From: Tomocerus qinae
Taxonomy: Eukaryota; Arthropoda; Collembola; Entomobryomorpha; Tomoceridae
Direction of reading: 5' to 3'
Length of the DNA: 64,000 nt
Assembly: GCA_020055645.1 (NCBI GenBank)
Contig: CM034550.1
Coordinates: 12,785,001-12,849,000 of the forward strand
Shown here: piece by piece, positions 5,341-64,000 of the stretch
How positions within the stretch are numbered: position 1 is the stretch's first letter
Layout of the letters: the number at the start of each line of letters is the position of its first letter
Position numbers and translations under genes: made by a program
Notes under the pieces: generated by a model
Databases searched by the model: none
What the model was told of the DNA's origin: nothing
Seen by the model: the letters and a program-made list of their open reading frames with translations, nothing else

Positions 5341-7506
5341 ATGGAATCTTCCAAGGATGAGAAAACCATCCAGGAAAATCCATTTAAAATCCCTGAGGTA
5401 AACTTATTTCAACTATGATTCAATAAAACTCAATTTATAGAAATGAAGGTTGCAAATTCAAGGATATATAGTATCTCTATATTCCCTTGCAGCGTGTAAA
5501 CAATAATGATCAATTGTAAGGGTTTTCTGTTTGAGCATTGATATTGTGGTTTTATAGATTCTAACAAAATTATTGTACTACCTGGAGTTGAGAGACCTGA
5601 GAAATTGTCGTCGGGTGAGTCGTTTATGGAAAGGGGCTGCAGGTGCCCACATTGCAGACCGAGTTAGAAAGATAACATTCGTCACAAACCAAGATGGACA
5701 ACAAGAGTCTAATATCGAAGAATTTACACAGCAAATCAAAAACAAAGATCATTCAATTTTTAAAGATTTTGCTTTAGAGCTTAATGAAGATTTACTTCCT
5801 TACCGAAGCTTTCCTGTTCAAAACTTCTTCGAAATATTTGGACAAAATTTACGACGATTGGAGGTCTATTATGACAACTGGCTTGATAATTTGCACGCTC
5901 AAGAAATCTTTCTAATGCTTCCTTCGCATTGTCCCAACTTGGAGGAATTTTACACTCGAATGTGCTATGACGAATTGGAAGGCGAAACAATTTACGATGA
6001 AAGTCGACCTAAACTACAGAATGTCAAGAGATTTACTTGGTACGACACTTCAGTAGCAAAATCTGTGGAATCTTCCAATGAAATTTTATCGTACATGCCA
6101 AATCTTGTGGATCTCCACTACAGACCAAGACCTTTCAGTCGCGCTCCACGCACTGTTAAATTCATTGATATGTTTATGGTGGCGTTCTACTCTGGGAATT
6201 TACAACAACTGGAAAACCTGTCATGTGACTACGAATGGATTGACAGCTGCGATTTCAAATGGCTTTTCAAGCTCGAACTAAGGTTGAAAGAATTGGCTTT
6301 GCAAATTAAAATTGATGACCATGGAAAATGGCTATTCCTTTTTATGGTCCAGCAATCCTCGACTCTAAAAGTTCTAGACATCCGACTTGCAATTGCTGTT
6401 CCATCAAATATGGCTGCAAATTCTATCGACGTGGCTGCTGGCGGTGCTAGTGATCTTGACCATGACCCTGATTTCGACCTGTCACCAAAATTACCAGCTC
6501 AACAAACACTTTTTGCATTCCCCAAAATGGACCACGTAACTAAACTTACAATGTGCTACAGTATGCTTACGAATGGATTTCTAGATTTATTCCCTTGTCT
6601 TACTCATCTCAACTTTGAACGAACACACTCCCTTGATTTCTTCGGAGGCGCTATAAAAATATTTCATGTGCTGGAAGCTCCCGTGGAGAAAGTATATCCC
6701 AAAATCAAATCTCTCAAATTGACAGAATTGATCCCTGAAAACGAAATTTGCATTTTGGCAACTGCTTTTCCTAATCTGAGAAAATTAGAAATCATGGCTA
6801 CAGATGGAATTATGAAGGAGATTTACAAACTCATGCCCACCTTGGAAGAACTCATCATTTGGGGAGATAACTTGACAGACATGGGAATCATGTACATCAA
6901 ACCATTCAAGAAAATCAAAAAGAAGAAAATGAAAAGTTTTCAATTAGACAACGAAGCACCTTTCATCGGAACACTAAAAAGTTGGTTTTCCCATTCATAG
7001 AACCTTTTTTATTATCCCGTTATTTTAATATTAATGAATATTTGCTGTTTCAGATCTGAGAGTGTTGGAAATCATTAACGGAGATCACAATCGGGTAGAT
7101 TGCAGAATCACTGGACTCTCCGTTGCATTTGGAATTGTTTATTTAAGCAAACTAGAAAGTCTTTCTCTGATCAATGGCATTCAGGTGAGATATATTTAAA
7201 TTGCTGGTTGAATTGAATTCGCCGAAATAACAAAAGTACGTCATTTTAATATTTCCACAGCTATCTCCCGATTCATTAACTGCCCTGGCGCACATATTTA
7301 CTCTGCGTCGTCTCTACATACAAATGAGTACAGAAGAAATCTTGGAGCCGATACAAATCCTTACTATGGCCAATCCACTGCTGGAGATATTTTACAAGGA
7401 GGAATCAACACTGAATCAATTGAAAATGGGAAAGCCATGGTACATTCGTCCTATCAAACATCTGATACAAAAGGGCAAAAGGAGACGAAAGAATGACAAT
7501 TTCTAG
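5341..7506 (+). CDS. F-box and leucine-rich-repeat-like protein
   Basis: Probable substrate adaptor of an SCF ubiquitin ligase: the F-box would bind Skp1 and the repeats a target. Exons 5341-5397, 5558-6980, 7054-7184 and 7261-7506 join in frame to 618 aa. The F-box is split by intron 1: residues about 14-50 read NPFKIPE, then ILTKLLYYLELRDLRNCRRV, then SRLWKGAA, with the usual Pro, Leu and Trp positions. The rest is made of irregular LRR-type units such as NLRRLEVYY, LKSLKLTELIP, LRKLEIMA and LRVLEIING. A basic lysine-rich stretch precedes the third intron (FKKIKKKKMK), and the protein ends in a basic tail. The start was chosen because exon 1 supplies the first F-box residues. The donor at 6981 (GTTGGT) is weak, but it is the only one that keeps the LRR frame. 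The family is recognised; the target is unknown. Confidence 0.85.
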
Positions 7507-32143: not shown

Positions 32144-33769
32144 TCATACCTCCTTAAATACAAATGTAAAGGCCCACTTAGAAACAGGATTACCCAGGTC
32201 AGGAATATCGATAAGAATTCCTTTGTTTTGCAAATCTTTCCATAAGATTTTTCCTGTAAATCCTAAAATGTCAATTTTTGAAAAGTCCTTCGCTTTAATA
32301 GATTCCAATCTTATTTGTGTCTTAAGTAAACCCGGTCCATTGAGAACTATTGCATAAATCTCGTTTCTCTCATCATTCCGGGTGTACCAAACGTTATTTG
32401 ATGCGGAGTCATTTTGTGCCGTTTGCCAAGGGTGAGATTCATAAACAGCATTGCCATTTACTTCTAGCCATTGTCCCAGCTGAATTAATCTTTCTTGCAT
32501 CACCGGATCGATCGTCCCTTCCTTTGTAGGGCCAACATTAACTAAAATGTTCCCACCACAGGAAACAGTCTCGGCCAATTGCTTGAGTAATTCATTGATA
32601 CTCAAATAGTCTGATAATTTTGCATTTCGACGAAATCCCCAATTAAATCTATCCAGAGTCATTGCATTTTCCCATTTAAAAGGTTGAAGAACTCCTGGAC
32701 TGTAACGATCTTGACATGAAAAATATCCACCATGTTTACATGATGTCCCAGAACCCCAACGATCATTTACGACAACGGTATCCTTCACAGGACTATCATT
32801 GTACAGCCAAACCAAAAATTCTTTTGATTTCCAATACGAGTCTGGAGCTTCCCAGTCTCCATCAGACCAAATTACTTCAGGCTTGTAGTTGAGTATCTAA
32901 AATTTCAAAAATTGAAAAACTACGATAATTGTTGGTCGAAAAATAGTCTAAAATCGTCCCATTGCAGAATTGCATAAAATATTAAAAAGTGAAAGTTCGT
33001 AAATTAAAATTAAAAATCAGATGTTTTTCCGTACCAGCTCACGCATTTCGGGTAAGACCTTGAGATGAACAAAATCATCAGTTTTCAGTAGGTTTCTTTT
33101 GTCACTAAGCCAGAGAGGATTGTACCATTCGTAAAGTGAGTGATATATACCAAATTTTAAAGTTGTATTCTTCCTAATGGCAACAGCAAGTTCTCCCAAC
33201 AAATCTCTATTTGGACCAACATCCATAGAATTCCAATTGAAAGAATATTTCGAAGGCCACAGTGTATATCCTTCGTGGTGTTTGCTTGAAAAGACGACGT
33301 ACTGAGCCCCAGATTTCGAGAAAAGATTGGCCCATTCGAAGGGATCATAAAATTCGGCTGTAAGTTGAGGAGCAAAGTCTTGATAACTAAAATTAGGTGG
33401 GTAATTATTCTTCATAAAAGTCACATAACTCGGGCTCCCTGATTTCCAATAGTTCCAGAACCATTCACTTCCAAAACTAGGGACAGAATGCACACCCCAG
33501 TTGATGAAAATTCCTACTTTACTAGAATCAAACCATTTCGGCAAGGGACGAGAGTCCAAGCTTTCCCAAGTGGCATTGTAGATAATTCGAGGAGATACAT
33601 GGTCAGGTTTATTTTCTTCTGTTAACTGTTGTTCGTCTTCGCTATCAGAAACGGATATTTTCACTCCCTGATTGTTTTTGAAAGTAGTAGTTAACATTGA
33701 TGTCTCAACATTAGAAATAATTATGCAAAAAATAGGAAAATAAAACATAAAGACACCACGTGGATGCAT
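32144..33769 (-). CDS. Alpha-L-fucosidase (GH29), paralogue 1
   Basis: Secreted or lysosomal hydrolase removing alpha-L-fucose from glycoconjugates. Two minus-strand exons, 33035-33769 and 32144-32896, give 495 aa in frame. A hydrophobic N-terminus ([15 protein letters not shown]) fits a signal peptide. GH29 landmarks: [43 protein letters not shown], and the nucleophile Asp257 in VIWSDGDWE at the start of exon 2. [16 protein letters not shown] follows the catalytic domain. Oddity: the conserved His of the IHWG motif, a fucose-contacting residue in this family, is Asn90 here (IFINWG), while the neighbouring paralogue keeps His. Activity or specificity may therefore be altered. The single intron is at the same place as in paralogue 2, so the pair arose by tandem duplication. 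Confidence 0.92.
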
Positions 33770-34365
33770 TTTCGTGAAAACACTTCTATTAACCTCAAGT
33801 ATGCGTAATAAATTATTGCAGTAAATGTAAACAAACTACAAATTGAATTAGATAGACTGATCGCAAACTTGTCCCTCTCACAAGACACTACTGTACATGA
33901 ACTCTTGTTTGTTTTCCAAATGACTTTGCAAACTCGTCGTTTACTTATATATGTTATTTTCTTTCGTTCATATCGATGAATAAATTGGTTACAAATAGAT
34001 TAGGTTATCTATAACTGCAAGATACAAGGTCCTATTCTATTACTATTACTACATAATATAACTTATGGTGACGACTATTTACATACAAAATCGTTTTTTA
34101 TGCTTTTATAGGCTCGGGATCGAATTCTTCTGGCAAAGACAAACCAACGTCGCTTGAGGAAATTTTATTGAAAAATATTAAATATTATTGGAGTTTTCAA
34201 TACATAGATATACATATACCGAAGAAAATAGATTACTTATTTTTGTAGGCTTTATGTACATTTTTCGTCAAGAGCATTTATTAAAATCATTAATATTCGG
34301 GAGAAAACAAAATTGCGCCTGAAAGCATTTACATTGAAAGCAAACGATAATTTACACTGATTTAG
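33770..34365. other. Spacer between the fucosidase paralogues
   Basis: Promoter side of paralogue 1 and 3' side of paralogue 2. No further gene; AT-rich. Confidence 0.4.
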
Positions 34366-36054
34366 CTATACAAGTTCAATAGAAATCGTCCACGCCCACT
34401 CCCCGTTGACTTTGCTGATATCTGGCATTTCCACTTTAATTCCATCTCCAGAGCGTGAGAATTTTAATTGTCCACAAGACGAGCACCCTAAGAGACTCAA
34501 TTTCTTAGCGATCGTGAATTTTACAGATCCCAAAATGATTTCTTGACCAGGCCATTTATTTAAAATGATAGCAAACACTTTCACATCACTTTCATTAGTC
34601 TGTTTGGCAGTGTACCAAACATCTGAGGTGACGGAATCATTTTGAGTAGTTTTCCAAGGTACAGTTTCATATATAGCTTCTCCGTTAATTTCCAACCATT
34701 TTCCCATCTGCAAGAGTCTTTCCTGCATCAAAGGTATGATAGTTCCTTCCTTCGTTGGCCCAATATTGATGAGAATATTTCCTCCACATGAAACTGTTGT
34801 AACTATTTCTGATATGATCTCCTGGACTGTAAGATAATCTTGCAATTTAGCATTCCTTCTGAATCCCCAAGAGAATTTATCCAGGGTCATTGCATTTTCC
34901 CACTTATACGGTTGAACCACTCCTGGATTGTATCTATCCTTACAAGTAAAAAATCCTCCATGCTTACATGGTACACCATATCCCCATCGATCGTTTGTTA
35001 CCACTGATTCTTTCACCGGACTGGAATTATACAACCAGGCGATAAACTCTTTTGATTTCCAGTAAGTTTCCAATGCATCCCAATCTCCATCTGACCAAAT
35101 TACATCTGGTTTATATTTGTTTACCTAAATTAGCAACAATAAAAATAATTAAAAATCGCTTAAAATGAAATCATGTGATTTACACTACCTACCAAGTTTA
35201 TCTAGTTTAAAAGTTATTGTAATAAAATGCAGCATTGAATTTTCATGATAGACATCAAAAACATACTTTTGCAAAAATAAAATAAAATTCATATGCCCAC
35301 CCAAAGTAAAATAATATTCGAATGTAATTACCAATTCATAAAGTTCCGGCATTGCTTTGAACCTAACGAAATAATCCGTGGAAAAGATATCCCAACGATC
35401 AGCAATGCAAAGTGGGTTGAACCATTCCAGCAATGAATGATAAATTCCAAACCGCATTTTTGTTTTTGAACGAACTGCCTCAGCTAATTCTCCGACTAAA
35501 TCTCTATTTGGACCAACATCCATGGAATTCCATGCGAAAGAATATTTCGAAGGCCACAAAGTGTATCCTTCGTGATGTTTACTTGTAAGAACTACGTATT
35601 TAGCTCCAGCCTTTTCAAACAAGTCTGCCCATTCTGTAGGATTGAAAAATTCGGCCGTGAAATCTTTTGCGAAATCTTGATACGTAAATTTGTAGGGATA
35701 GTTATCACGCATATAGTTCACAGTTTTTGGTTCGTAAGTTTTCCAATTGTACCAAAACCATTCACTTCCAAAAGCAGGAACACTAAAAACTCCCCAATGA
35801 ATAAAAATCCCTATTTTAGATTTATCATACCATCCCGGGAGTGGACGACTATCTAGACTCTCCCACGTAGGCTCATAACGTAGAGAACCGATAGTGTTAT
35901 TATTATAATAACGAACAGAGTTGTTTTCTGTTACAACTAATGAAGAAAGATGCTCTACTAAACTACTCGTATTTCGAAATGACGACGATAAAGCAGTTGA
36001 AAGTGTTAGGAATGTCAATACTATAAATAATTGAAATGCAAAAACTTTGGCCAT
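34366..36054 (-). CDS. Alpha-L-fucosidase (GH29), paralogue 2
   Basis: Two minus-strand exons, 35332-36054 and 34366-35124, give 493 aa in frame. The N-terminus [20 protein letters not shown] is a convincing signal peptide. Motifs: [20 protein letters not shown] with the fucose-binding His86, [34 protein letters not shown], nucleophile Asp253 in VIWSDGDWD, and [16 protein letters not shown]. All expected active-site features are present, unlike paralogue 1. The C-terminal beta-sandwich domain keeps a Cys pair (CSSCGQ). It lies head-to-tail with paralogue 1 and has the same intron position and phase. Confidence 0.93.
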
Positions 36055-43278: not shown

Positions 43279-44682
43279 CATGATTTTACATGTCTTTTCC
43301 TACTCCGTCATTTTATGAATAACTCGATTAATTTTGCCTCAATCTAGGCGTGTGAGGTCTTAAAATGACGAGACACTATCCAGGAGGGTCTCAAGTTTCT
43401 TACATTTTACAATTTTGACCTCTCAAAGTCGTAGGAGCGGATTTGAAAAAAATTATTTTTTATTTTTTGGCGGGATGCTTTTAGAAATGGATAACAGGGT
43501 AAATAAAATTAATTTTGGTAAAGTCTGAGACTTGTGACCCTCCTGGTCATAGGATGAATCTCTAGAAAAAATCCCATATTTTTTAGTTTATCCATTTATG
43601 AGTTATGCGTAAAATGATGCAAAATAAAAGTTTGAATTCCAAGTAAACTTTAAAACAGCAAAGAACGACAGAGTATCTTAGTCATGTGTGTTACTGTATA
43701 CTCTCACAGACAACCAAACAGCATCAGCATTTCATTCGTATGCATTCTTCAAGGCACGTTCATTCCTATAAGACTGTTGATTTTATCACATTTACTCACA
43801 ATTTTCACTCGCAACTACATAAAATTGGAAATTGTGACTTCAAAATAATTGATTAGTATATTGCATTTTCGACTTCAATTTTTTGGAATCCGATTTTGCC
43901 TTCAGTCGTTGAACTTTTGACACTATATACGAAGCAAGATGGTAGAAAACCGAGACTAGGTAAGCATTCCCAATTTAATTTTATACATTTATTGTTGCCC
44001 AAAAATTAGCATGTGTTTAAATAATTGACAAGTGAAAATAATTGTTACTGATCATTATCCGCTGTGCTGTAATTATTACAGCACTACGAATATGAGTATT
44101 ACTCATCAGGTGTTACTAAATGAAAAACTAAGAAATTAATAGTGACAATAAATTGACTCTAATTACACAGGTGGCAGGTGAACAATTAGTACTTGGAGTG
44201 GAAACAAATCGAGAGGAGTAGTAAGTAAAATACATCCGAGTGATTTGACCTGACCTAGTCGTTTTAGCTGTATAACACTGTAAACTCAACTACAAAGCTG
44301 CAACTGATTAGGTAATGGTTGATAGTAATTTTTAAAAAAAAAATTCAATCCTCATTAGGAGCAAAAATGCATTAAAATATTATGTAATCATTGACAAATG
44401 ACATACTGAACAGTTTACAGCATTCCTAATCATAAAAAAGTAACAGCATTTGGCTTTATTATATAGGTGAAAAGATGAGTTTCCGTATATGGAAAACCGA
44501 GAGGAGTAATGAGTAAAATACATCCGAGTGGTTTGACTTTATTTTAGTGACTAGCACTGACTTTTGGAAGCCGAGACACAGGTGACGAGGTAAGCTTCCT
44601 CAAAAACTTGAGTGCTTTCAATTCCATCTTCGTCGGGTGGTGCCATGCAATAAAACAGTTTGAGCTTTTTGTGTATTTTAGA

Positions 44683-47359
44683 ATGGCCAAATACAGAAAT
44701 GTCAACAGCCGTAAGAGAAAGCCTCCTTGGAAACTAAAACAAAATAATGTGGCCAAAAATCGAGTACAAAAAAATACTTTGCAACAAATACCGGCGGAAA
44801 ATCTAGCACCCCAAAATCATCCAGCGATCCAGGCTCCATCCAAACCAATAGACATAAGAGCAAAGGGAAGACGACTGATGTCTATTTCATCTCTAGAAAA
44901 CTTTATGAAGCTGTCAATGGATCATGGTAAAGCATGTCCTGAGGGAGCTATACACATTAATAACGAAAAACTATTGGGAATGCGGTCCATTTTTTCAATT
45001 CAATGTCAACATTGTGGCTGGACAAAAGATGCGGATTCAGATTCAAATTGTGCCCTGGGTGTAAATGAAGCATTAGCTTGGGGAACATTAGCAGGAGCTT
45101 CAAGTTATCAAGGTAGCAGAAATCTGTTTCAAGTTTTGGAGTGTCATTTTCCAAGTCATAAAACGTTTCAAAATCACAAAGATGCCACTGCTTTGAAATG
45201 GACCAAAGCATTGCACAATGAAATAAAAGAAAACGGCATACTTGAAAGGAAACTAGCAATTGAAAACAAAAATTTTGTCGTTGTAAATGGCATTCAATAT
45301 CCATACACTACGGTCTACGTTGATGGTGGCTGGGGTAAGAGATCATACGGCCACTCATTTAACTCAAACTCTGGATGTGCAGTAATTGTTGGCCACTATT
45401 CGAAAAAGATTCTGTTTTTAGGCGTCCGGAACAGATATTGTACTATATGCAAGCTAAACGAAAATAGAGAATTTAGAAGCACGTCTGTTTTAAAAAATTG
45501 GAAAAACAATCAAAGTTCTAGCAGTATGGAGTCAGATATTTTAGTTGAAGGATTTAATTCAAGCATCGACACTCACGGCCTTGTTTATAAAAACTTTGTA
45601 GGTGATGGCGATTCATCAGTGTACGTGAATCTTTTGTCAAAGGTAAATCCTCTAACAAACTTCTATTTATAATATTAAAATTAAACGTAGATTTATAACG
45701 GCACTCGAATACAAACATCTGTTTGTTTCACTCACCCCAAATTTAGACTAAGTACTTTTTAAGTTGCTAATTATTGCTATATCGTTTTACAGGTGAACTA
45801 TGGAGATATCCGGATAGAAAAAACTGAGTGCGTCAACCATGCAGTCAAACGATTCAATAAAGCAGTAAGAGAAATTGCAAACAATACTAAGCGCTATGGT
45901 GGAAAAGAGCATCTTCTTATTAGAAAGAAAATTAACAGATTTGGAATCGCATTAAGATATGTTGTTCAGTTTCACAGTCGTCAAGACAGCACTGACAAAG
46001 TAAAACATTTGGCTGAGAACATTCGAAATATTCCATTTCACATATTTGGGGACCATTCAAAATGTAGTGACAACTACTGCTCAGAAGAAAGAAAACAAGA
46101 AAAAAATGAAGTACCTATTCTTTCTAAAACCCTGATGTGGGAAGACTTATCTGAAGTAACAACTCGAATTGCGCAAATTTCTCCCAGAATAATCTCAAAT
46201 GTTACTAGTAACCGCGCAGAAAGATTTATGAGCAACTGCTCGAAATATTTGTTAGGAAAACGTTTAAACGTATACCAAAGAGGAGGGTATAACGAAAGGG
46301 TTACCGCTGCTGGATTAGCATACACTAACAAAGCTAGTTTTTTTACGAATGTGATTCGAACCATTGAGAAGAAGAGCCCATGTGCTGTGTGGAAACGTTC
46401 AGAACAAATATCAATGCGACTAAAAAAGGCCAGCCTAAAGCGGACTAAATTACATTTTCCAGTGCCTAGGAATGGAAACATGGAATATGGGGATGTAGAT
46501 TATGGTAAAAATCCTGCGGACGAAGACATGCTAACGGAAGATGAAATTAAAGAGAAAGTAAAATTAAAGATCAGTAGCTTACAAGTAGATGGTAATACGA
46601 GGGATGATATTGAAAAAAAGACGATAGGACAATCGTCTAATCATCAATGGCATTATTTTAGACGGCATAGAATAACAGCATCTTTAGCAGGCCGCTTAGC
46701 TGGGCTTCAAGACTGTACTAATAATACGTCTATTATTAACGCAATTTTGAGACCCGATCGAAAATCCTAACATTAGATGCTATTCGGCACGGCGTTTCTA
46801 CAGAAGGGGAGGCTAAACGGCAGTATGAAGTGGTAACTGGAAACAAAATAACGGAATGTGGTCTGTTTATTTCTTTAGAAAATGGTGTACTAGCAGCGTC
46901 GCCCGATGGATTAGTGGGACACGATGGCATTGTGGAGGTAAAATGTCCAATTAGTATGATTGGACATAATCCATCTGAAACACCATCAAAAATGAAATCG
47001 CCATATTTAGTATTTGACAAAGCAACTAACAAACTAACATTAAAAAAGACACATGCCTACTACAAACAAATTGTAATGCAACTGTATGTAACAAATCGAA
47101 ATTGGTGTGATTTCGTAGTATATTCATACAAAATTGAAAACAACTTGCATGTCCCCTTTCCGCCTTTATTCAACGAATTGAAAGAAATTCAGCTACAGAT
47201 GCCGAATGGGCTAATATGTACCATAAGTTTCTTAAATTTTATGAGGAAGATTTAGGCCCCGAAATAGTTAATTCTCGAGCTAGTCGAAATATGATAATTA
47301 GGCAGCCAAAGTATCGCCAAGATGCAATAAACAAAAAGACTGCTAACAAAAACAAATAA
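44683..47359 (+). pseudogene. Transposase fused to YqaJ-type nuclease, frameshifted
   Basis: The start is the ATG at 44683 just after a splice acceptor (TATTTTAG); a 5' UTR exon with donor GTAAGC near 44590 is likely. The first coding exon ends at 45642 and the second begins at 45793 (150-nt GT-AG intron, in frame). The N-terminus is basic. The middle carries a zinc-ribbon-like CQHCGW and CTICK, and the Mutator-like transposase motifs YPYTTVYVDGGWGKRSYGHS, YKNFVGDGDSSVY and IEKTECVNHAVKRFNKA. The C-terminal part is a YqaJ/lambda-exonuclease-fold nuclease: WHYFRRHRITAS, LAASPDGLVG and VEVKCP, the last two bearing the metal-binding Asp and Glu-x-Lys. The frame breaks at an A-run near 46760 and again near 47165; the end is read in the shifted frame at 47359. 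Broken, or sequence errors. Confidence 0.8.
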
Positions 47360-49644: not shown

Positions 49645-49802
49645 TAAGCCTTTCCTACAATTGCTTTCTGGTCACCAGTTGAAGTGAATCTCAGTAGATG
49701 GAAATATAGTATTTTCAGGCTTTTTTAATGTATTATTCTCTACCTCCATCTACTGAGATTCACTTCAACTGGTGACCAGAAAGCAATTGTGGGAAAGGCT
49801 TA
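49645..49802. mobile_element. Palindromic MITE interrupted at its right end by the BEL element
   Basis: Inverted arms of about 57 bp: left about 49645-49701 starts TAAGCCTTTCC, right about 49746-49802 ends GGAAAGGCTTA, with only one or two differences and a loop of about 45 bases. The last bases of the right arm (GCTTA) are the target duplicated by the LTR element, and the terminal TT continues after the right LTR. Confidence 0.7.
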
Positions 49803-50030
49803 TGGATAAACCTCGTTAATGCATTTTGGTATCTACACGAGGGAGCAAGACATAAGTTCGAAACAGTCTTGTCTTGCCCCTTTGTTGAGTTTGGAATCTC
49901 TACAGGGAGACAGGACGTGTTAGTTCGAAACATTCTTGTCTCTAGCTTGTGCTAGAGCTTCTCACTCGTCCCTACACTTATACATGTAGTAGATAGGGAC
50001 AGTGGGAATCTCGTTAATCCATTCATGCGT

Positions 50031-50087
<57 letters not shown>

Positions 50088-50639
50088 ACGGAGTAAAGCC
50101 TACTCTCTTTCCCACAGCCAGCCTCCAATACCTATCTTAATGTTAAGTAGTGTAGTTTCTAGCCGTACGCATGTAATGCATTGATAACTACCTATCTATG
50201 TATAGTCCCTACCTTAGCATAGTATGTAGCATAATATTATGTATGTAACTCTAGTACCTACCTATCTATTAGTGTGTAGCCCTATCTACCTACCTATTAG
50301 ATGTAGTACATAAAGTAAGTTTTTGGCGTAGCATTCTTCAGTAGCACGCGGTACCCTGTTGGAGACGCACGTTCCTTTTGTGTCAGTTCTCCGAATATAT
50401 TTAATTTGCCCAATTAAATATTACTAGTGCTACCCTTAATTACCTTACCTGTAATTACCTATAAATTGTTGATTGTGTGTTTGTTGTGTATGTGTGCCTA
50501 TTATTTTCATATAAATAAAACCGGGTTTTTCAACACAAAATAAGTTCGCCAAAAGCACACACTACATTAAAGCATCCCCAGATTTGGCATCATTGGTTTG
50601 GACTCTACCTGCAAGCGATATCGAAGTCAGCCCTCTTCA
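49803..50639 (+). repeat. Left LTR
   Basis: 837 bp, begins TGGATAAACC and ends CCCTCTTCA (TG...CA). Contains ATAAATAAAACC near 50510, a likely polyadenylation signal. Confidence 0.93.
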
Positions 50640-50965
50640 TTTTGGTCCTTCGAGAGCACGGATGTCGGTAATTATCATTAATTTAAATTAGTGCATCAAT
50701 TAATTACCGTAATCAGTTACGGGATACTGACTGTCGCCTTGCCACGGTTACTCGTCAGCCATTTTGGAAGCCATTTCGCCAGTTGTGTTTGGATCGTTCA
50801 TCCAATTTAAGTTTGAATTTCCCGCCATTGGGGAAACTAGAGACAGTGCACGTCTCATCTACAAGTGAAAGTGTTTGTGAGCTCTCTACAGCTACAACAG
50901 GAAAAGTCTCATCTCACGGTGCCCCGTAAGTTGTTCTTTCTCCTTGTCTCTTGCATAAAAGCATC

Positions 50966-53900
50966 ATGGACGCCGTCCAGAGGAATCGACGAGCGTTGAA
51001 CACTGAGATTACTCGGATCGCCAACGTACTTGCCCAGTACGACAAGACGAATCCGATGCCGAAATCCGAAAACGTAGTACAGGAGAAGAGTCTGTTTGCC
51101 TGCAGACAACGGTACTACAAGGTCTTGGACGAGTGCAGTGTGGCCGCCAAGACCACTGCGGAGTACGACCGCGAAGAAGCAGAGTTTCTCACTCTCATCG
51201 AAAAGATGGACAAGCTGAGCATCAAGCTCGAAGACATGAAGATCGCCGCCGCTGCTCTAGTGACTGGAACCTCAGAAATCAAGCTACCGAAGCTGGAACT
51301 ACCACGGTTCTCCGGTGAAGTACACCAATGGCTTTCCTTTCATGACCTCTTTTTAGCGTCCATCCATCATAACACGAAGCTATCTGGAGCCCAGAAGCTT
51401 CAATACCTGAAAGGTGCAGTGGACGGTGAGCCGTCGAAGCTCATCAGTAGTCTCCAGATAACGGACGCAAACTACGACGTCGCCTGGAAGACCTTGGAGG
51501 ATCGGTATCAAGATAAGCGTGAACTCATCCGAGGTACGTTCGTCCGACTCCTCTCTCAACAGAACATTATTACGGATTCTCCAGCTATGCTACAGACTCT
51601 AGCCGATACTTCTCGTGAGTGCGTGCAATCGTTCGCGACTTTGGGCATTCCCAAAGAAGAAGTGTGTGAGCTTCTCATAGTGCACATCATCTCACAAAAG
51701 TTAGACTCAGAGTCTCGTACGCAGTGGGAGCGTAAGCAGGAAAAAGGTAAACTGCCCACATTTGAACAGTTTTGTGAGTTCCTTGATGAACAGGCCAGAG
51801 TCACGGCCGCAGCAAAACCGTCGTCATCCAAGTCACAAGCGAAGTCCAAGGATCGTCGTCCTGGAGCAGCTATGCACTACGGATCATCAGACGCAAAACC
51901 ACGAAGTGAGTGCACGTTCTGTAGTGGTGAGCATCACATATTCTCGTGTTCAGCCTTTGCGGCTTTAACTGTGCCAGACAGATGGACATCTGTAAAGAGT
52001 AAAGCCTTATGCTTTAACTGCTTAGAGTTTGGGCACAGAACTGAGAACTGCACGAAAAGAAAGTGTAGGCATTGTCGGAAGCCCCACAATCGCTTACTCC
52101 ACCCGGAGAAACCTCCGCGAAAGCAAGAGTCCTCTGCACCAGCTACGACGGATCCTCCAGAGAAGGTACAAGTCAGTTTTTGTTCGTCTCTATCAGCATC
52201 ACGTACGCAAACTCTTCTGTGCACTGCACTCGTACGAGTGAAGGACAGCAAGGGACAGCTACAAGTGTGCAGAGCTCTGTTGGATAACGGCTCGCAGACG
52301 TCTACAATTACTACAGCATGTGCCACTCGACTCGGACTACGTAGACGTAAAGTGCACATACCGATCTCAGGCATTGGTGGTGTGGATGCAGGTACGTACT
52401 CGGAAATCACTTCTTTAAGCTTTTCCTCATGCTACGCTACTCAGCCTACCTTCGACGTCAATGCGATCGTGATGAAAGTCATCACTCATCCCCTGCCTAC
52501 GTACGAAATCACGCAAGTGAATTGGAATCACTTACAAGGACTACAACTAGCAGACCCTCAATATAACGTCCCTGGCAAGATAGACATGCTGCTAGGTATG
52601 GACATTTACAATGCTTTGCTTGTAGACGGCATGAAGAAAGGCGCACAGGGTAGTCCTACAGCTATCAACACGGCTCTCGGTTGGATTGTCGGAGGAAAGC
52701 TAGGAACTATGCAGCCTACTTCACTCGCTACGCATCACGTCCATTGCGACATGGATGATGCTCTTAGGAAGTTCTGGGAACTAGAAGAGCTGCCACGGCA
52801 GAAGTTCTTATCGCTCGAAGAGAAAGAGTGTGAAGAACACTATGCAGCTACGCATAGTAGAAATGATGACGGAAGATTCGTCGTACGCCTTCCCTTCAAG
52901 AAAAGTGCAGAGCCACTTGGAGACTCTAGGAACATAGCCATGAAGCGGTTGAAGAGTACGGAACGAAGATTAAGCTTAGACCCACCTTTGCATACAGAGT
53001 ACCAGTCGGTAGTTAGTGAGTATCTACAGCTTAAGCATATGGAACTTGTCCCCGAGCGTGAAGTGGTTCCCGATCGGCAAGTGTATTATATGCCGCACCA
53101 TGCAGTGTTAAAGCCCACTAGTACTACGACAAAACTGCGTGTAGTGTTTGATGCATCAGCAGCATCATCAAATAAAGTTTCATTGAACGAAAATCTACTA
53201 GTAGGTCCCAAACTGCAAGACGATCTAGTGTCTATACTAGTTAGGTTCCGAAAGCATGCGATCGCATTTACGGCAGACTTGGCCAAGATGTACAGACAAG
53301 TACAGATGCATCGCGATGATATAGACTATCAACGCATTCTTTGGCGAGCCTCTACTACCGAACCTGTACGAGACTACAGGCTTCTGACTGCAACATTTGG
53401 AACTGCTTCAGCACCGTACTTGGCCATCAAGAGCCTCCAGCAACTAGCTACGTACGAAGAAGTCAAGCATCCAGAAGCAGCGCAAATAGTACGTAGAGAC
53501 TTCTACGTTGATGATTTGATGAGTGGTGCGGAAAGTGAGGAACACGCTCTTAAGCTACAGAGCGAGTTGATTGCAATGCTGCAGCTCGGACAGTTCGAAC
53601 TACGCAAGTGGTCATCTAACTCTCCCGTACTGCTGGCCTCTCTCCCACCTGAAATGCGCGAATTCAACTTGCCCCTGTCGATCGACGAAAATGAAACTAT
53701 CAAGACATTAGGACTTAAATGGCATCCTGCTACGGACTGCTTTTCGTTTACAGTCACTCTCATGCAACAAGTCACGGCACCAACCAAGCGCATAGTTCTA
53801 TCAGAAATTGCTAAAGTGTTTGATCCGCTTGGCTGGCTGTCCCCAGTGACTATAGTTGCAAAGACATTTATACAGACGTTGTGGAAGGAAGAAATCGGCT

Positions 53901-56068
53901 GGGACGAAGCACTACCGCAAGAACTCCAATCTCATTGGAATGAGCTAAGAGAGCAGCTGCCTACTCTCCATGCATTGAAAATCCCACGCCACGTCCTCAC
54001 AGTGAATGTTGTTGATACTCAACTGCACGGCTTTAGTGATGCATCGGAACGTGCATACGCTGCAGTTGTCTTTCTACGCTCAGTGGATGCAAGTGGAAAT
54101 GTGCGCGTGAGAATGGTAGCTGCAAAAAGCAAAGTAGCTCCAGTGAAGCAAGTGACTTTGCCTCGCTTAGAATTGTGTGCCGCAGTTCTACTCGCAAAGT
54201 TGATGCAGTGTGTGCATAGTGCCTTAATGCTACCGGTACGAGAGAACTACGGCTGGACGGATTCTACAATCACTCTAGCATGGCTCGCATCCCCACCTCA
54301 ACGCTGGTCCACATTTGTTGCGAATCGTGTGTCCGAAGTACAGCAGACTGTGCCATACATAGAGTGGAATCACGTACGGAGTGAGGATAATCCTGCAGAC
54401 TGTGCATCCAGAGGGATCCCACCGTCTGATCTCCTCACTCACAATTTGTGGTGGAATGGGCCTGAGTGGCTCGCAGTGCCGAACTTTGTGCCTCCAAGTT
54501 ACACTGAACCGTGTTTCGCTCCGCCAGAAGAACGACCTAGAAAAGTGCTACATGTGCTGGTGGATGACTCTATGCTACATAGATATTCAGATGTAAGTCG
54601 ACTACTTAATGTTACTGCATATTGTTTACGCTTCATACGTAATGCTCGCATGAAGGCAAGTGCACGACGTACTAGGCCAGAGCATGTCAGTCCACCAACC
54701 ACGTACGAATTAGATGAAGCATTACATACTTGGGTGAAAGTAGTCCAGTCGAACGAGTTTCACTCGGACATTTGTGCTCTTAAAGCAAATAGGGAATTGC
54801 CTAATAGCAGTAAGTTGAAGTCGCTTGTACCATTTCTCGATGAAAATGGAATTTTGCGTGTTGGCGGACGGCTGAAGAAATCAGCACTGCATACCGACGC
54901 CAAGCACCAAATCCTACTGCCAAAGAATCATCACTTCACTCAGCTCATCATAGCATACTACCACAAGAAAGAATTGCACGCAGGGCCTCAGCTACTACAA
55001 GCATCAATTCAGCAGAAGTACTGGATTCTGGCCGCTCGCGATGCGATAAGGAAATATGTGCGCCAGTGTGTACGGTGCTTTCGCTTCCGTGCACAAGCTA
55101 CACAGCAGAGAATGGGAGAATTACCAGCATCTCGAGTGACCCCAGCACCTCCATTTCAACGGTGCGGAGTTGACTATGCTGGCCCATTTCTACTCACCGC
55201 ACGGAAGGGACGAGGACAGAAGAGCTACAAAGCCTATGTAGCTCTCTTCGTGTGCTTCGTGTCTCGTGCGATTCATTTGGAACTGGTATCTGATTTGACT
55301 ACGGATGCTTTCATGGCTGCATTCCGTAGATTTATTGCACGTCGTGGAAAGCCTACAGACGTGTATAGCGATTGTGGTACGAACTTCGTTGGTGCACGCA
55401 ACAAGCTCGATGACCACTATAGGAAGTTTATGTCTGCAGCCCACAACGAAGAAATGGAACGAGAACTCGTACGTGAAAGGATCCGCTGGCATCTAAATGC
55501 GCCTGCATCGCCACACCATGGAGGTATATGGGAGTCTGGCGTGAAGTCGATGAAGCATCACCTCCATAGAACGGTCGGCAATGCAATACTCACTACGGAA
55601 GAGATGTCCACACTCCTAGCTCAAGTAGAAGCCTGCCTCAACTCCCGTCCGATCACTGAACTGTCTAGCGATCCGAACGACTTGCTGCCGCTTACGCCTG
55701 GACATTTCCTCATCGGACGGCCACTTACTGCACTCGCTGAGCCTTCGCTCACGCACTTGAAGGAGGGACACCTATGCCGCTGGCAACACGTGCAGCAACT
55801 GTACCAGCACTTCTGGAATAGATGGTCTACAGAATATCTCGCGCGACTACAGCAACGTAAGAAGTGGACTACGGAGCATCCCAATATCAAGGTAGGAGAT
55901 GTAGTACTTCTTACGGATGAACGCCTTGCACCGAACAGATGGAATCTAGGACTCATCACAGCTACTACGCCTGGAAAAGATGGTTTAGTGCGCGTAGTGA
56001 CTGTGAAGACATCAGCAGGGAGTGTGCAACGCTCCATTGCTAAACTCTGCATATTACCTATAGGATAA
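50966..56068 (+). CDS. BEL/Pao Gag-Pol polyprotein
   Basis: 1700 aa from the first in-frame ATG (50966). Order: Gag region (DUF1759 type, PKLELPRFSGEVHQW); CCHC zinc knuckles (CFNCLEFGHRTENC, about residues 350-365); retropepsin with ALLDNGSQTSTI (about 435), a DNG active site; reverse transcriptase with FYVDDLMSG (YVDD about 848); Pao-type RNase H (LHGFSDASERAYAA); integrase zinc-binding region (ELHAG ... CVRC); integrase core with Asp in VDYAGPF, Asp in YSDCGTNF and Glu in HHGGIWESGVKSMK; and the C-terminal domain WNRWSTEYL ... VVLLTDE. There is no stop or frameshift in the whole frame, so it appears competent. Its G+C and codon use are higher than those of the surrounding genes. No envelope gene follows. 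Confidence 0.95.
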   Translation: MDAVQRNRRALNTEITRIANVLAQYDKTNPMPKSENVVQEKSLFACRQRYYKVLDECSVAAKTTAEYDREEAEFLTLIEKMDKLSIKLEDMKIAAAALVTGTSEIKLPKLELPRFSGEVHQWLSFHDLFLASIHHNTKLSGAQKLQYLKGAVDGEPSKLISSLQITDANYDVAWKTLEDRYQDKRELIRGTFVRLLSQQNIITDSPAMLQTLADTSRECVQSFATLGIPKEEVCELLIVHIISQKLDSESRTQWERKQEKGKLPTFEQFCEFLDEQARVTAAAKPSSSKSQAKSKDRRPGAAMHYGSSDAKPRSECTFCSGEHHIFSCSAFAALTVPDRWTSVKSKALCFNCLEFGHRTENCTKRKCRHCRKPHNRLLHPEKPPRKQESSAPATTDPPEKVQVSFCSSLSASRTQTLLCTALVRVKDSKGQLQVCRALLDNGSQTSTITTACATRLGLRRRKVHIPISGIGGVDAGTYSEITSLSFSSCYATQPTFDVNAIVMKVITHPLPTYEITQVNWNHLQGLQLADPQYNVPGKIDMLLGMDIYNALLVDGMKKGAQGSPTAINTALGWIVGGKLGTMQPTSLATHHVHCDMDDALRKFWELEELPRQKFLSLEEKECEEHYAATHSRNDDGRFVVRLPFKKSAEPLGDSRNIAMKRLKSTERRLSLDPPLHTEYQSVVSEYLQLKHMELVPEREVVPDRQVYYMPHHAVLKPTSTTTKLRVVFDASAASSNKVSLNENLLVGPKLQDDLVSILVRFRKHAIAFTADLAKMYRQVQMHRDDIDYQRILWRASTTEPVRDYRLLTATFGTASAPYLAIKSLQQLATYEEVKHPEAAQIVRRDFYVDDLMSGAESEEHALKLQSELIAMLQLGQFELRKWSSNSPVLLASLPPEMREFNLPLSIDENETIKTLGLKWHPATDCFSFTVTLMQQVTAPTKRIVLSEIAKVFDPLGWLSPVTIVAKTFIQTLWKEEIGWDEALPQELQSHWNELREQLPTLHALKIPRHVLTVNVVDTQLHGFSDASERAYAAVVFLRSVDASGNVRVRMVAAKSKVAPVKQVTLPRLELCAAVLLAKLMQCVHSALMLPVRENYGWTDSTITLAWLASPPQRWSTFVANRVSEVQQTVPYIEWNHVRSEDNPADCASRGIPPSDLLTHNLWWNGPEWLAVPNFVPPSYTEPCFAPPEERPRKVLHVLVDDSMLHRYSDVSRLLNVTAYCLRFIRNARMKASARRTRPEHVSPPTTYELDEALHTWVKVVQSNEFHSDICALKANRELPNSSKLKSLVPFLDENGILRVGGRLKKSALHTDAKHQILLPKNHHFTQLIIAYYHKKELHAGPQLLQASIQQKYWILAARDAIRKYVRQCVRCFRFRAQATQQRMGELPASRVTPAPPFQRCGVDYAGPFLLTARKGRGQKSYKAYVALFVCFVSRAIHLELVSDLTTDAFMAAFRRFIARRGKPTDVYSDCGTNFVGARNKLDDHYRKFMSAAHNEEMERELVRERIRWHLNAPASPHHGGIWESGVKSMKHHLHRTVGNAILTTEEMSTLLAQVEACLNSRPITELSSDPNDLLPLTPGHFLIGRPLTALAEPSLTHLKEGHLCRWQHVQQLYQHFWNRWSTEYLARLQQRKKWTTEHPNIKVGDVVLLTDERLAPNRWNLGLITATTPGKDGLVRVVTVKTSAGSVQRSIAKLCILPIG

Positions 56069-56164
56069 ATAATGAATTTTTTATTGTATTTAGCTATATT
56101 TATCCTTGGCATGTATGTATGATAGCTTAGAATGTTGAAATAGTGTATTTCAAGGCGGGGAAAA

Positions 56165-56392
56165 TGGATAAACCTCGTTAATGCATTTTGGTATCTACAC
56201 GAGGGAGCAAGACATAAGTTCGAAACAGTCTTGTCTTGCCCCTTTGTTGAGTTTGGAATCTCTACAGGGAGACAGGACGTGTTAGTTCGAAACATTCTTG
56301 TCTCTAGCTTGTGCTAGAGCTTCTCACTCGTCCCTACACTTATACATGTAGTAGATAGGGACAGTGGGAATCTCGTTAATCCATTCATGCGT

Positions 56393-56449
<57 letters not shown>

Positions 56450-57001
56450 ACGGAGTAAAGCCTACTCTCTTTCCCACAGCCAGCCTCCAATACCTATCTT
56501 AATGTTAAGTAGTGTAGTTTCTAGCCGTACGCATGTAATGCATTGATAACTACCTATCTATGTATAGTCCCTACCTTAGCATAGTATGTAGCATAATATT
56601 ATGTATGTAACTCTAGTACCTACCTATCTATTAGTGTGTAGCCCTATCTACCTACCTATTAGATGTAGTACATAAAGTAAGTTTTTGGCGTAGCATTCTT
56701 CAGTAGCACGCGGTACCCTGTTGGAGACGCACGTTCCTTTTGTGTCAGTTCTCCGAATATATTTAATTTGCCCAATTAAATATTACTAGTGCTACCCTTA
56801 ATTACCTTACCTGTAATTACCTATAAATTGTTGATTGTGTGTTTGTTGTGTATGTGTGCCTATTATTTTCATATAAATAAAACCGGGTTTTTCAACACAA
56901 AATAAGTTCGCCAAAAGCACACACTACATTAAAGCATCCCCAGATTTGGCATCATTGGTTTGGACTCTACCTGCAAGCGATATCGAAGTCAGCCCTCTTC
57001 A
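56165..57001 (+). repeat. Right LTR
   Basis: 837 bp, TG...CA, identical by eye to the left LTR; followed by the duplicated GCTTA. Confidence 0.93.
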
Positions 57002-63728: not shown

Positions 63729-63766
63729 TCATTCCGTTGGATGTTTAGCGTGTCTGTTCATGAGGT
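63729..63766 (+). promoter_or_regulatory. snRNA promoter elements (PSE-like) of the U2 gene
   Basis: The stretch 63729-63749 starts TCATTCC and ends GTTTAGC, at -62 to -42 from the U2 start. It shares its conserved flanks with the insect PSEA as I remember it (AATTCC ... TTTTAGC). CATGAGGT at 63759-63766 (-32) starts like the Drosophila PSEB (CATGGAAA). There is no TATA box at -30, consistent with a Pol II snRNA promoter. Confidence 0.6.
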
Positions 63767-63790: not shown

Positions 63791-64000
63791 ATCGCTTCTC
63801 GGCCTTTTGGCTAAGATCAAAGTGTAAGTTGAATTCTTTGGCTAATTCCATACTTATACTGTAGTTACAGTTTGGTAAGACATGTGACTAATCTATGCTT
63901 TCTTTTTGTGTCTTTGCAGGTAGTATCTGTTCTTATCAGCTTAATTCCTGATACGTTCCTCATTGAGGGACTCAGAATTATTCTGATTTTTGGAACCAGG
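63791..64000 (+). ncRNA. U2 spliceosomal snRNA gene with an intron (3' end outside the window)
   Basis: U2 pairs with the intron branch point during splicing. Exon 1 (63791-63823) starts ATCGCTTCTCGGCC and ends GATCAAAGT, the universal U2 5' end with stem I. Exon 2 (63920 onward) starts GTAGTATCTGTTCTTATCAG. Joined, the exons give the standard U2 sequence, including GATCAAAGTGTAGTATCTG as in Drosophila, to my recollection. The branch-point-recognition sequence GTAGTA is residues 34-39 of the joined RNA. Downstream, stem IIa (TATCAG/CTGATA) and stem IIb (GTTCCTC/GAGGGAC, one G-T pair) can form, and the Sm site GATTTTTGG lies at 63985-63993. The remaining roughly 75 bases lie beyond the window. 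The intact stems argue against a pseudogene; the intron excludes a retrocopy of mature U2. Confidence 0.9.
63824..63919 (+). other. 96-nt spliceosomal intron inside the U2 snRNA gene
   Basis: 5' splice site GTAAGT (full match to the U1 consensus); candidate branch site TGACTAAT at 63885-63892 with the branch A at 63891, 28 bases before the 3' end; pyrimidine-rich tract CTTTCTTTTTGTGTCTTTG; and a terminal CAG at 63917-63919. Other registers would give the same spliced product, but only this one uses GT-AG. Confidence 0.88.

Follow-up and report, generated by a model that had tools for sequence, protein, structure and literature searches.

Six U2 snRNA genes of Tomocerus qinae appear to be interrupted by a spliceosomal intron next to the branch-site recognition sequence

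The last 210 bases (63791-64000) of the window, by which we mean the whole 64,000-nucleotide stretch analysed here (C5:12785001-12849000), contain the 5' portion of a U2 snRNA gene of Tomocerus qinae. The gene is split by a 96-nt insert, 63824-63919, which reads GTAAGT...TGACTAAT...CAG and immediately precedes GTAGTA, the branch-site recognition sequence. The features of the gene and its upstream region are as follows.

63729..63749 (-62 to -42), plus strand: PSEA-like element TCATTCCGTTGGATGTTTAGC, at the expected place, with 12/21 identity to the fly U1 PSEA
63758..63765, plus strand: PSEB-like sequence TCATGAGG, 8 bp after the PSEA-like element; kept in four of the six U2 genes by eye
63791..63823, plus strand: U2 exon 1, 33 nt, with the 5' end, stem I and GAUCAAAGU; RF00004 match; identical in all six genes
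63824..63919, plus strand: putative spliceosomal intron, 96 nt; same position in all six full-length U2 genes
63824..63829, plus strand: 5' splice site GTAAGT; the first 8 intron bases are invariant in the six genes
63885..63892, plus strand: branch motif TGACTAAT, with the branch A at 63891; invariant in the six genes
63893..63919, plus strand: polypyrimidine tract (19/24 pyrimidines) and 3' splice site CAG; the last 15 intron bases are invariant in the six genes
63920..64000, plus strand: first 81 nt of U2 exon 2; RF00004 match; the gene runs on past the window
63920..63925, plus strand: GTAGTA, directly after the 3' splice site, which we take from the established biology of U2 to be the branch-site recognition sequence
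63942..63980, plus strand: partners TAATTC (63942-63947) and GAATTA (63975-63980), six standard pairs, presumably those named stem IIc
63986..63993, plus strand: ATTTTTGG, which we take to be the Sm site from its sequence

The two sides of the insert were matched separately by the U2 model RF00004 in cmscan. The 3' side (63898-64000) scored 55.6 bits, above the gathering score of 46, and the short 5' side (63791-63896) scored 37.9 bits, below it; both matches extended into the insert. When the two sides were joined, the score against the printed Rfam consensus was 69.0, compared with 18.5 for the unjoined sequence, which bears out the initial annotation in its claim that the blocks around the insert join to a metazoan U2 5' region. 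An excision scan, in which every start from 63791 to 63959 and every length from 40 to 160 was scored against the Rfam U2 consensus, peaked at the removal of 96 nt. The peak comprised four equivalent placements (63824-63827) because GTA is present at both edges of the insert, and the next best excision scored 68.0. Only the placement at 63824 gives GT...AG, and it yields a joined sequence in which GATCAAAGT is followed by GTAGTATCTG. At the junction exon 1 ends in AAAGT and the exon 2 side is GTAGTATC; an uninterrupted U2 junction would be AAAGTGTAGTATCTG. At the 5' splice site the exonic AAAGT differs from the usual CAG, and this counts against the intron. Beyond the window the 3' half of the gene, whose destruction would by the initial annotation refute the reading, is intact and reaches the U2 end at about C5:12849078. 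An artefact of the window end was rejected, given that the gene continues intact past 64000.

The insert had been described from its letters as bearing the marks of a pre-mRNA intron, and GTAAGT, TGACTAAT, a pyrimidine tract and CAG were all found in it. The branch A at 63891 lies 28 nt before the intron end and is followed by 24 nt that include the 19 pyrimidines. GTAAGT together with YAG at this spacing occurred in 2 of the 127,808 96-mers of the window (both strands), and only one of these, the U2 insert itself, also had a branch-like motif; a Markov control gave 4 occurrences of the 96-mer intron signals in 4,000,020 positions. With its GT...AG ends, GTAAGT-like 5' site, branch motif and pyrimidine tract, the insert has the sequence features predicted for a U2-type intron. 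A U12-type intron was rejected, as the ends and the branch do not fit the U12 consensus. Introns of 64, 84 and 107 nt, all GT...AG and comparable in length to the insert, were deduced from the open frames of three neighbouring genes; one of the three was recognised by Pfam, and the tested pieces of the other two had no Pfam match.

The rest of the window carries genes and mobile elements of other kinds. Two tandem alpha-L-fucosidase genes lie on the minus strand at 32144-36054 (three of the four open frames tested by Pfam). Among the best 120 of 348 matches to a fucosidase open frame, all named organisms are animals, many of them arthropods, with identities of 47-71%, and the best among the matches listed is a mussel protein (58%). 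A Mutator-like transposase in two separate open frames, followed by a third open frame, occupies 44608-47252. A young LTR retrotransposon, assigned to the BEL type by eye from its open frame, spans 49802-57001; it has two identical 838-bp terminal repeats with GCTT at both outer edges, and within each repeat lies a piece of 28S rRNA, about 100 nt long, in antisense orientation. The open frame at 5573-6997 was without a match in the protein search.

The initial annotation called for a search of the whole genome for U2 loci with and without the intron. The assembly comprises 334 Mb in 115 contigs, and 46 of 22,564 first-look candidates were scored with RF00004. Seven U2 matches were obtained, of which the seventh is truncated and the other six (L002-L007) are full-length genes, all located on the 24-Mb contig C5 between 4.99 and 14.99 Mb. 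All six are interrupted at the identical site, by 96 nt in five genes and by 97 nt in one; the interruption claimed for a single U2 gene therefore extends to every full-length gene found. The six genes lie above the RF00004 cut-off up to model position 192. Stem I was not fitted to exon 1 in these genome matches because the matched stretch begins inside the intron, and the spliced U2 was compared with the printed Rfam consensus by alignment over its first 114 nt. Taken together, the sequences match U2 over the whole molecule, and the branch-site recognition sequence, stems IIa-IIc and the Sm site of a U2 gene are all present. That the window holds an isolated decayed copy was rejected, as five further genes have the same structure.

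The uninterrupted junction AAGATCAAAGTGTAGTATCTG was absent from the genome at up to two mismatches in a pattern search, and neither RF00004 nor the junction pattern uncovered an intronless full-length U2 gene in the 334-Mb assembly. When the intron was used as a DNA query, in a search that skips very common words, it matched six places in the genome, all inside the six U2 genes, at 91-100% identity. Within the window there was no close copy of the insert (the next best match had an E value of 0.64). Given that the intron matches only in U2 genes, there is no visible repeat family, and the intron was probably gained once, before the gene copies separated or were homogenised. Exact patterns of the U2 5' region, both interrupted and joined, had no match in virus, prokaryote and plasmid sequence collections, and blastn against plasmids and phages gave none either.

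Two minus-strand genes of C5, L004 and L007, are separated by about 99 kb and have nearly identical flanks (2/96 upstream columns differ); to judge from these flanks, the pair is a recent duplication. L002 shares its upstream flank, and not its downstream flank, with this pair.

An alignment of the six genes revealed where variation has accumulated. None of the 33 columns of exon 1 and 2 of the 152 columns of exon 2 are variable, both of the latter in L007. In the intron 14 of 97 columns vary, while the splice sites and the branch motif region are invariant. Upstream of the gene, 12 of 20 columns vary at -20..-1, 12 of 43 in the promoter stretch (-63..-20) and 62 of 96 in the flank from -160 to -64; in the 3' flank, 7 of the first 25 columns vary and then 30 of 30. 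An intron that evolves faster than the exons and keeps its signals is what would be expected of a U2-type spliceosomal intron, and the pattern of variation is, on this comparison, that of working genes with a real intron.

The exon sequence was also consistent with a functional RNA. The joined 114 nt folded better than 200 shuffles (z -4.04), and stems IIa and IIb of U2 can pair fully. In its minimum-energy fold the joined piece forms stems I, IIb and IIc and omits IIa; stems IIa and IIc are alternatives in U2. By our own reading of the alignment, two stem IIc pairs differ from the Rfam consensus on both sides, and such double-sided changes would be as expected for a functional RNA.

By eye, five of the six U2 genes share the PSEA-like element listed above without a change, and L006 departs from it at 5/21 positions. 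When the upstream region was compared with the fly U6 PSEA, the element did not rank among the best matches. A score as good as that of the element is reached at 365 of 127,920 window positions, which gives a chance of 1.4% for five placements. A PSEA match with CATG at the PSEB place is expected with a probability of about 1e-4 by chance, a post hoc figure in which the site itself is counted. The spacing of 8 bp between the two elements is that of fly Pol II snRNA promoters, as described in PMC4227766. At about -60, U1 and U4 genes show by eye motifs of the GTCGTTNG...GAGCGTGT type, and U5 genes show GTCGTAGG. When the upstream stretches of U1, U4 and U6 were compared with the U2 element, they scored 10-12/20, the same as random stretches, and for this reason the evidence for a snRNA-type promoter common to U2 and the other snRNA genes of this genome is no more than suggestive. 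A stretch after the U2 3' end, ACAATTAAATCAAAA, is conserved among the U2 genes and may be a 3' box.

The seventh U2 match, L008 on contig C1, is truncated and lacks the intron. Its likeness to U2 stops at about nucleotide 93. At the junction one GTA has been lost (a 3-nt deletion), and there is one inserted base and one substitution; its other bases up to about nucleotide 93 equal the present U2. It aligned with a score of 83.0 to the spliced U2, compared with 60.0 to the unspliced U2, and it is flanked by perfect 15-bp repeats. Beside the U2 part, in L008 1438-1604, are (GATA)n and a short sequence, and these also border L022, a truncated U4 copy. Both copies look like reverse-transcribed snRNAs that would have been mobilised with one putative LINE-like element. 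Because L008 is intronless and truncated, with 15-bp flanking repeats and a (GATA)n end in common with L022, it is best read as a retrocopy of spliced U2 RNA, and as such it is the nearest thing to RNA evidence in this analysis. It could also have been copied from an intronless ancestral gene, in which case it would hold no record of splicing. The lack of the intron, together with the one-base insertion, the substitution and the 3-nt deletion, would be in keeping with such an ancestor; however, the bases up to about nucleotide 93 match the present U2, and the perfect 15-bp repeats suggest a recent event. We consider the ancestral origin somewhat unlikely, though it deserves real weight, and it touches one supporting line only.

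The splice signals, the intact exons, the single site in six of six genes, the constraint on the exons, the promoter-like element and the intronless retrocopy together point, at the level of sequence, to a functional U2 snRNA gene, and very probably this gene belongs to a six-member family with a precursor that requires splicing. In this respect the proposal of a U2 snRNA gene interrupted by a canonical spliceosomal intron is upheld. Introns are unusual in snRNA genes and multi-copy snRNA families often include pseudogenes, so one could envisage that all six genes are decaying. Yet only 2 of 185 exon columns vary, as against the 62 of 96 in the upstream flank, and no other full-length U2 gene was found; decay of the whole family is extremely improbable. 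The same can be said of the possibility that the U2 genes have received a small transposon or a mobile introner rather than an intron spliced by the cell, which we find barely credible. The GTA at both ends could be a 3-bp target duplication, and transposons that target snRNA genes do exist: Dada DNA transposons target U6, U1 and tRNA genes, encode a transposase and duplicate 6-7 bp (PMC3706591). They resemble the present case in placing extra DNA inside small RNA genes. In contrast to Dada, with its longer duplication, the U2 insert is 96 nt long, bears intron signals that are invariant across the six copies, and has ends that by eye are not inverted repeats; its six copies in the genome are all in U2, with none found elsewhere in the search that skips very common words.

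A different objection accepts that the six interrupted genes may be spliced and holds that most U2 is made from undetected intronless genes in unassembled DNA. The other snRNA genes bear on it. Neither RF00026 nor a set of four conserved U6 patterns, each allowed one mismatch, revealed an intact U6 gene in the assembly: RF00026 gave one weaker match, L018, a degenerate-looking copy, three of the four patterns had no match, and the other matched L018 only. In view of this result, some snRNA genes may be absent from the assembly, intronless U2 genes possibly among them. However, nine U1, four U4 and seven U5 matches are present in the assembly, and the interrupted genes keep their exons and splice signals while their flanks diverge, unlike an unused family. 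We therefore regard a hidden intronless source of U2 as quite improbable and return to the six interrupted genes, which, we infer, are spliced and supply all U2.

The U6 result leaves two alternatives: the assembly has missed the U6 genes, in which case the claim for U2 would be weaker, or they are interrupted too. No insertion was found in any of the nine U1, four U4 (two of which are truncated copies by eye) and seven U5 genome matches. It is a rather unlikely but conceivable outcome that all U2 genes and U6, both catalytic RNAs of the spliceosome, are interrupted, with introns in U6 having hidden it from our searches, and that U1, U4 and U5 are uninterrupted. If this were true, the interruption of U2 and U6 would suggest that reverse splicing had placed introns at the active centre of the spliceosome itself, and the supply of snRNA would depend on splicing itself.

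To our knowledge, introns in spliceosomal RNA genes are known only from fungi. The ordinary animal U2 (RF00004) has stem I, the branch-site recognition sequence, stems IIa-IIc and the Sm site in common with the present gene, which differs in being interrupted by an intron between the equivalents of human positions 32 and 33. The closest precedent is the U2 snRNA gene of the yeast Rhodotorula hasegawae, which has an mRNA-type intron (Takahashi et al. 1993, via PMC2586383). The likeness lies in an mRNA-type intron inside a U2 snRNA gene; Rhodotorula hasegawae, however, is a fungus, whereas Tomocerus qinae is an animal in which the intron is present in all six full-length U2 genes found. A 2017 paper describes U3 and U6 as the sole small structured RNAs in which introns are known to be frequent, and in baker's yeast the introns of U3 are removed by the ordinary splicing machinery (PMC5832005). 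The fungal U6 snRNA and U3 snoRNA introns likewise lie inside genes for small structured RNAs, but these are other RNAs in another kingdom (PMC5832005). No animal U2 gene with an intron was among the matches listed in the open-licence part of PubMed Central, a collection without most subscription journals.

A working model can be drawn up for the expression of the U2 genes. The PSEA/PSEB-like, snRNA-type promoter would direct Pol II transcription of a pre-U2 of about 280 nt, from which existing spliceosomes would excise the 96-nt U2-type intron so that stem I becomes joined with the branch-site recognition sequence; the spliced RNA would then acquire its Sm core and a trimmed 3' end. Because the intron signals are U2-type, U2 would be required for the maturation of U2, and this self-dependent loop might be primed by maternal snRNPs. 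As to the origin of the intron, it occupies the region through which U2 pairs with the branch site, adjacent to the catalytic core. For snRNA introns, the literature on yeast U6 has proposed an origin by reverse splicing into RNAs of the spliceosome. Perhaps, then, the intron was gained once when a lariat was reverse-spliced into U2 held in the spliceosome and returned to DNA, after which it would have spread among the U2 genes by duplication or gene conversion; it is the position of the intron that fits such an origin.

In Tomocerus qinae, a component of the spliceosome must apparently be spliced by the spliceosome itself. This is an animal case that comprises six full-length U2 genes, with the intron placed against the very sequence that reads branch sites, and, if RNA confirms it, the production of U2 depends on U2. 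If true, the finding leads one to ask whether Pol II transcripts of the snRNA type can undergo splicing, whether introns arise by reverse splicing into an RNA of the spliceosome, and whether the supply of U2 is bistable and maternally primed.
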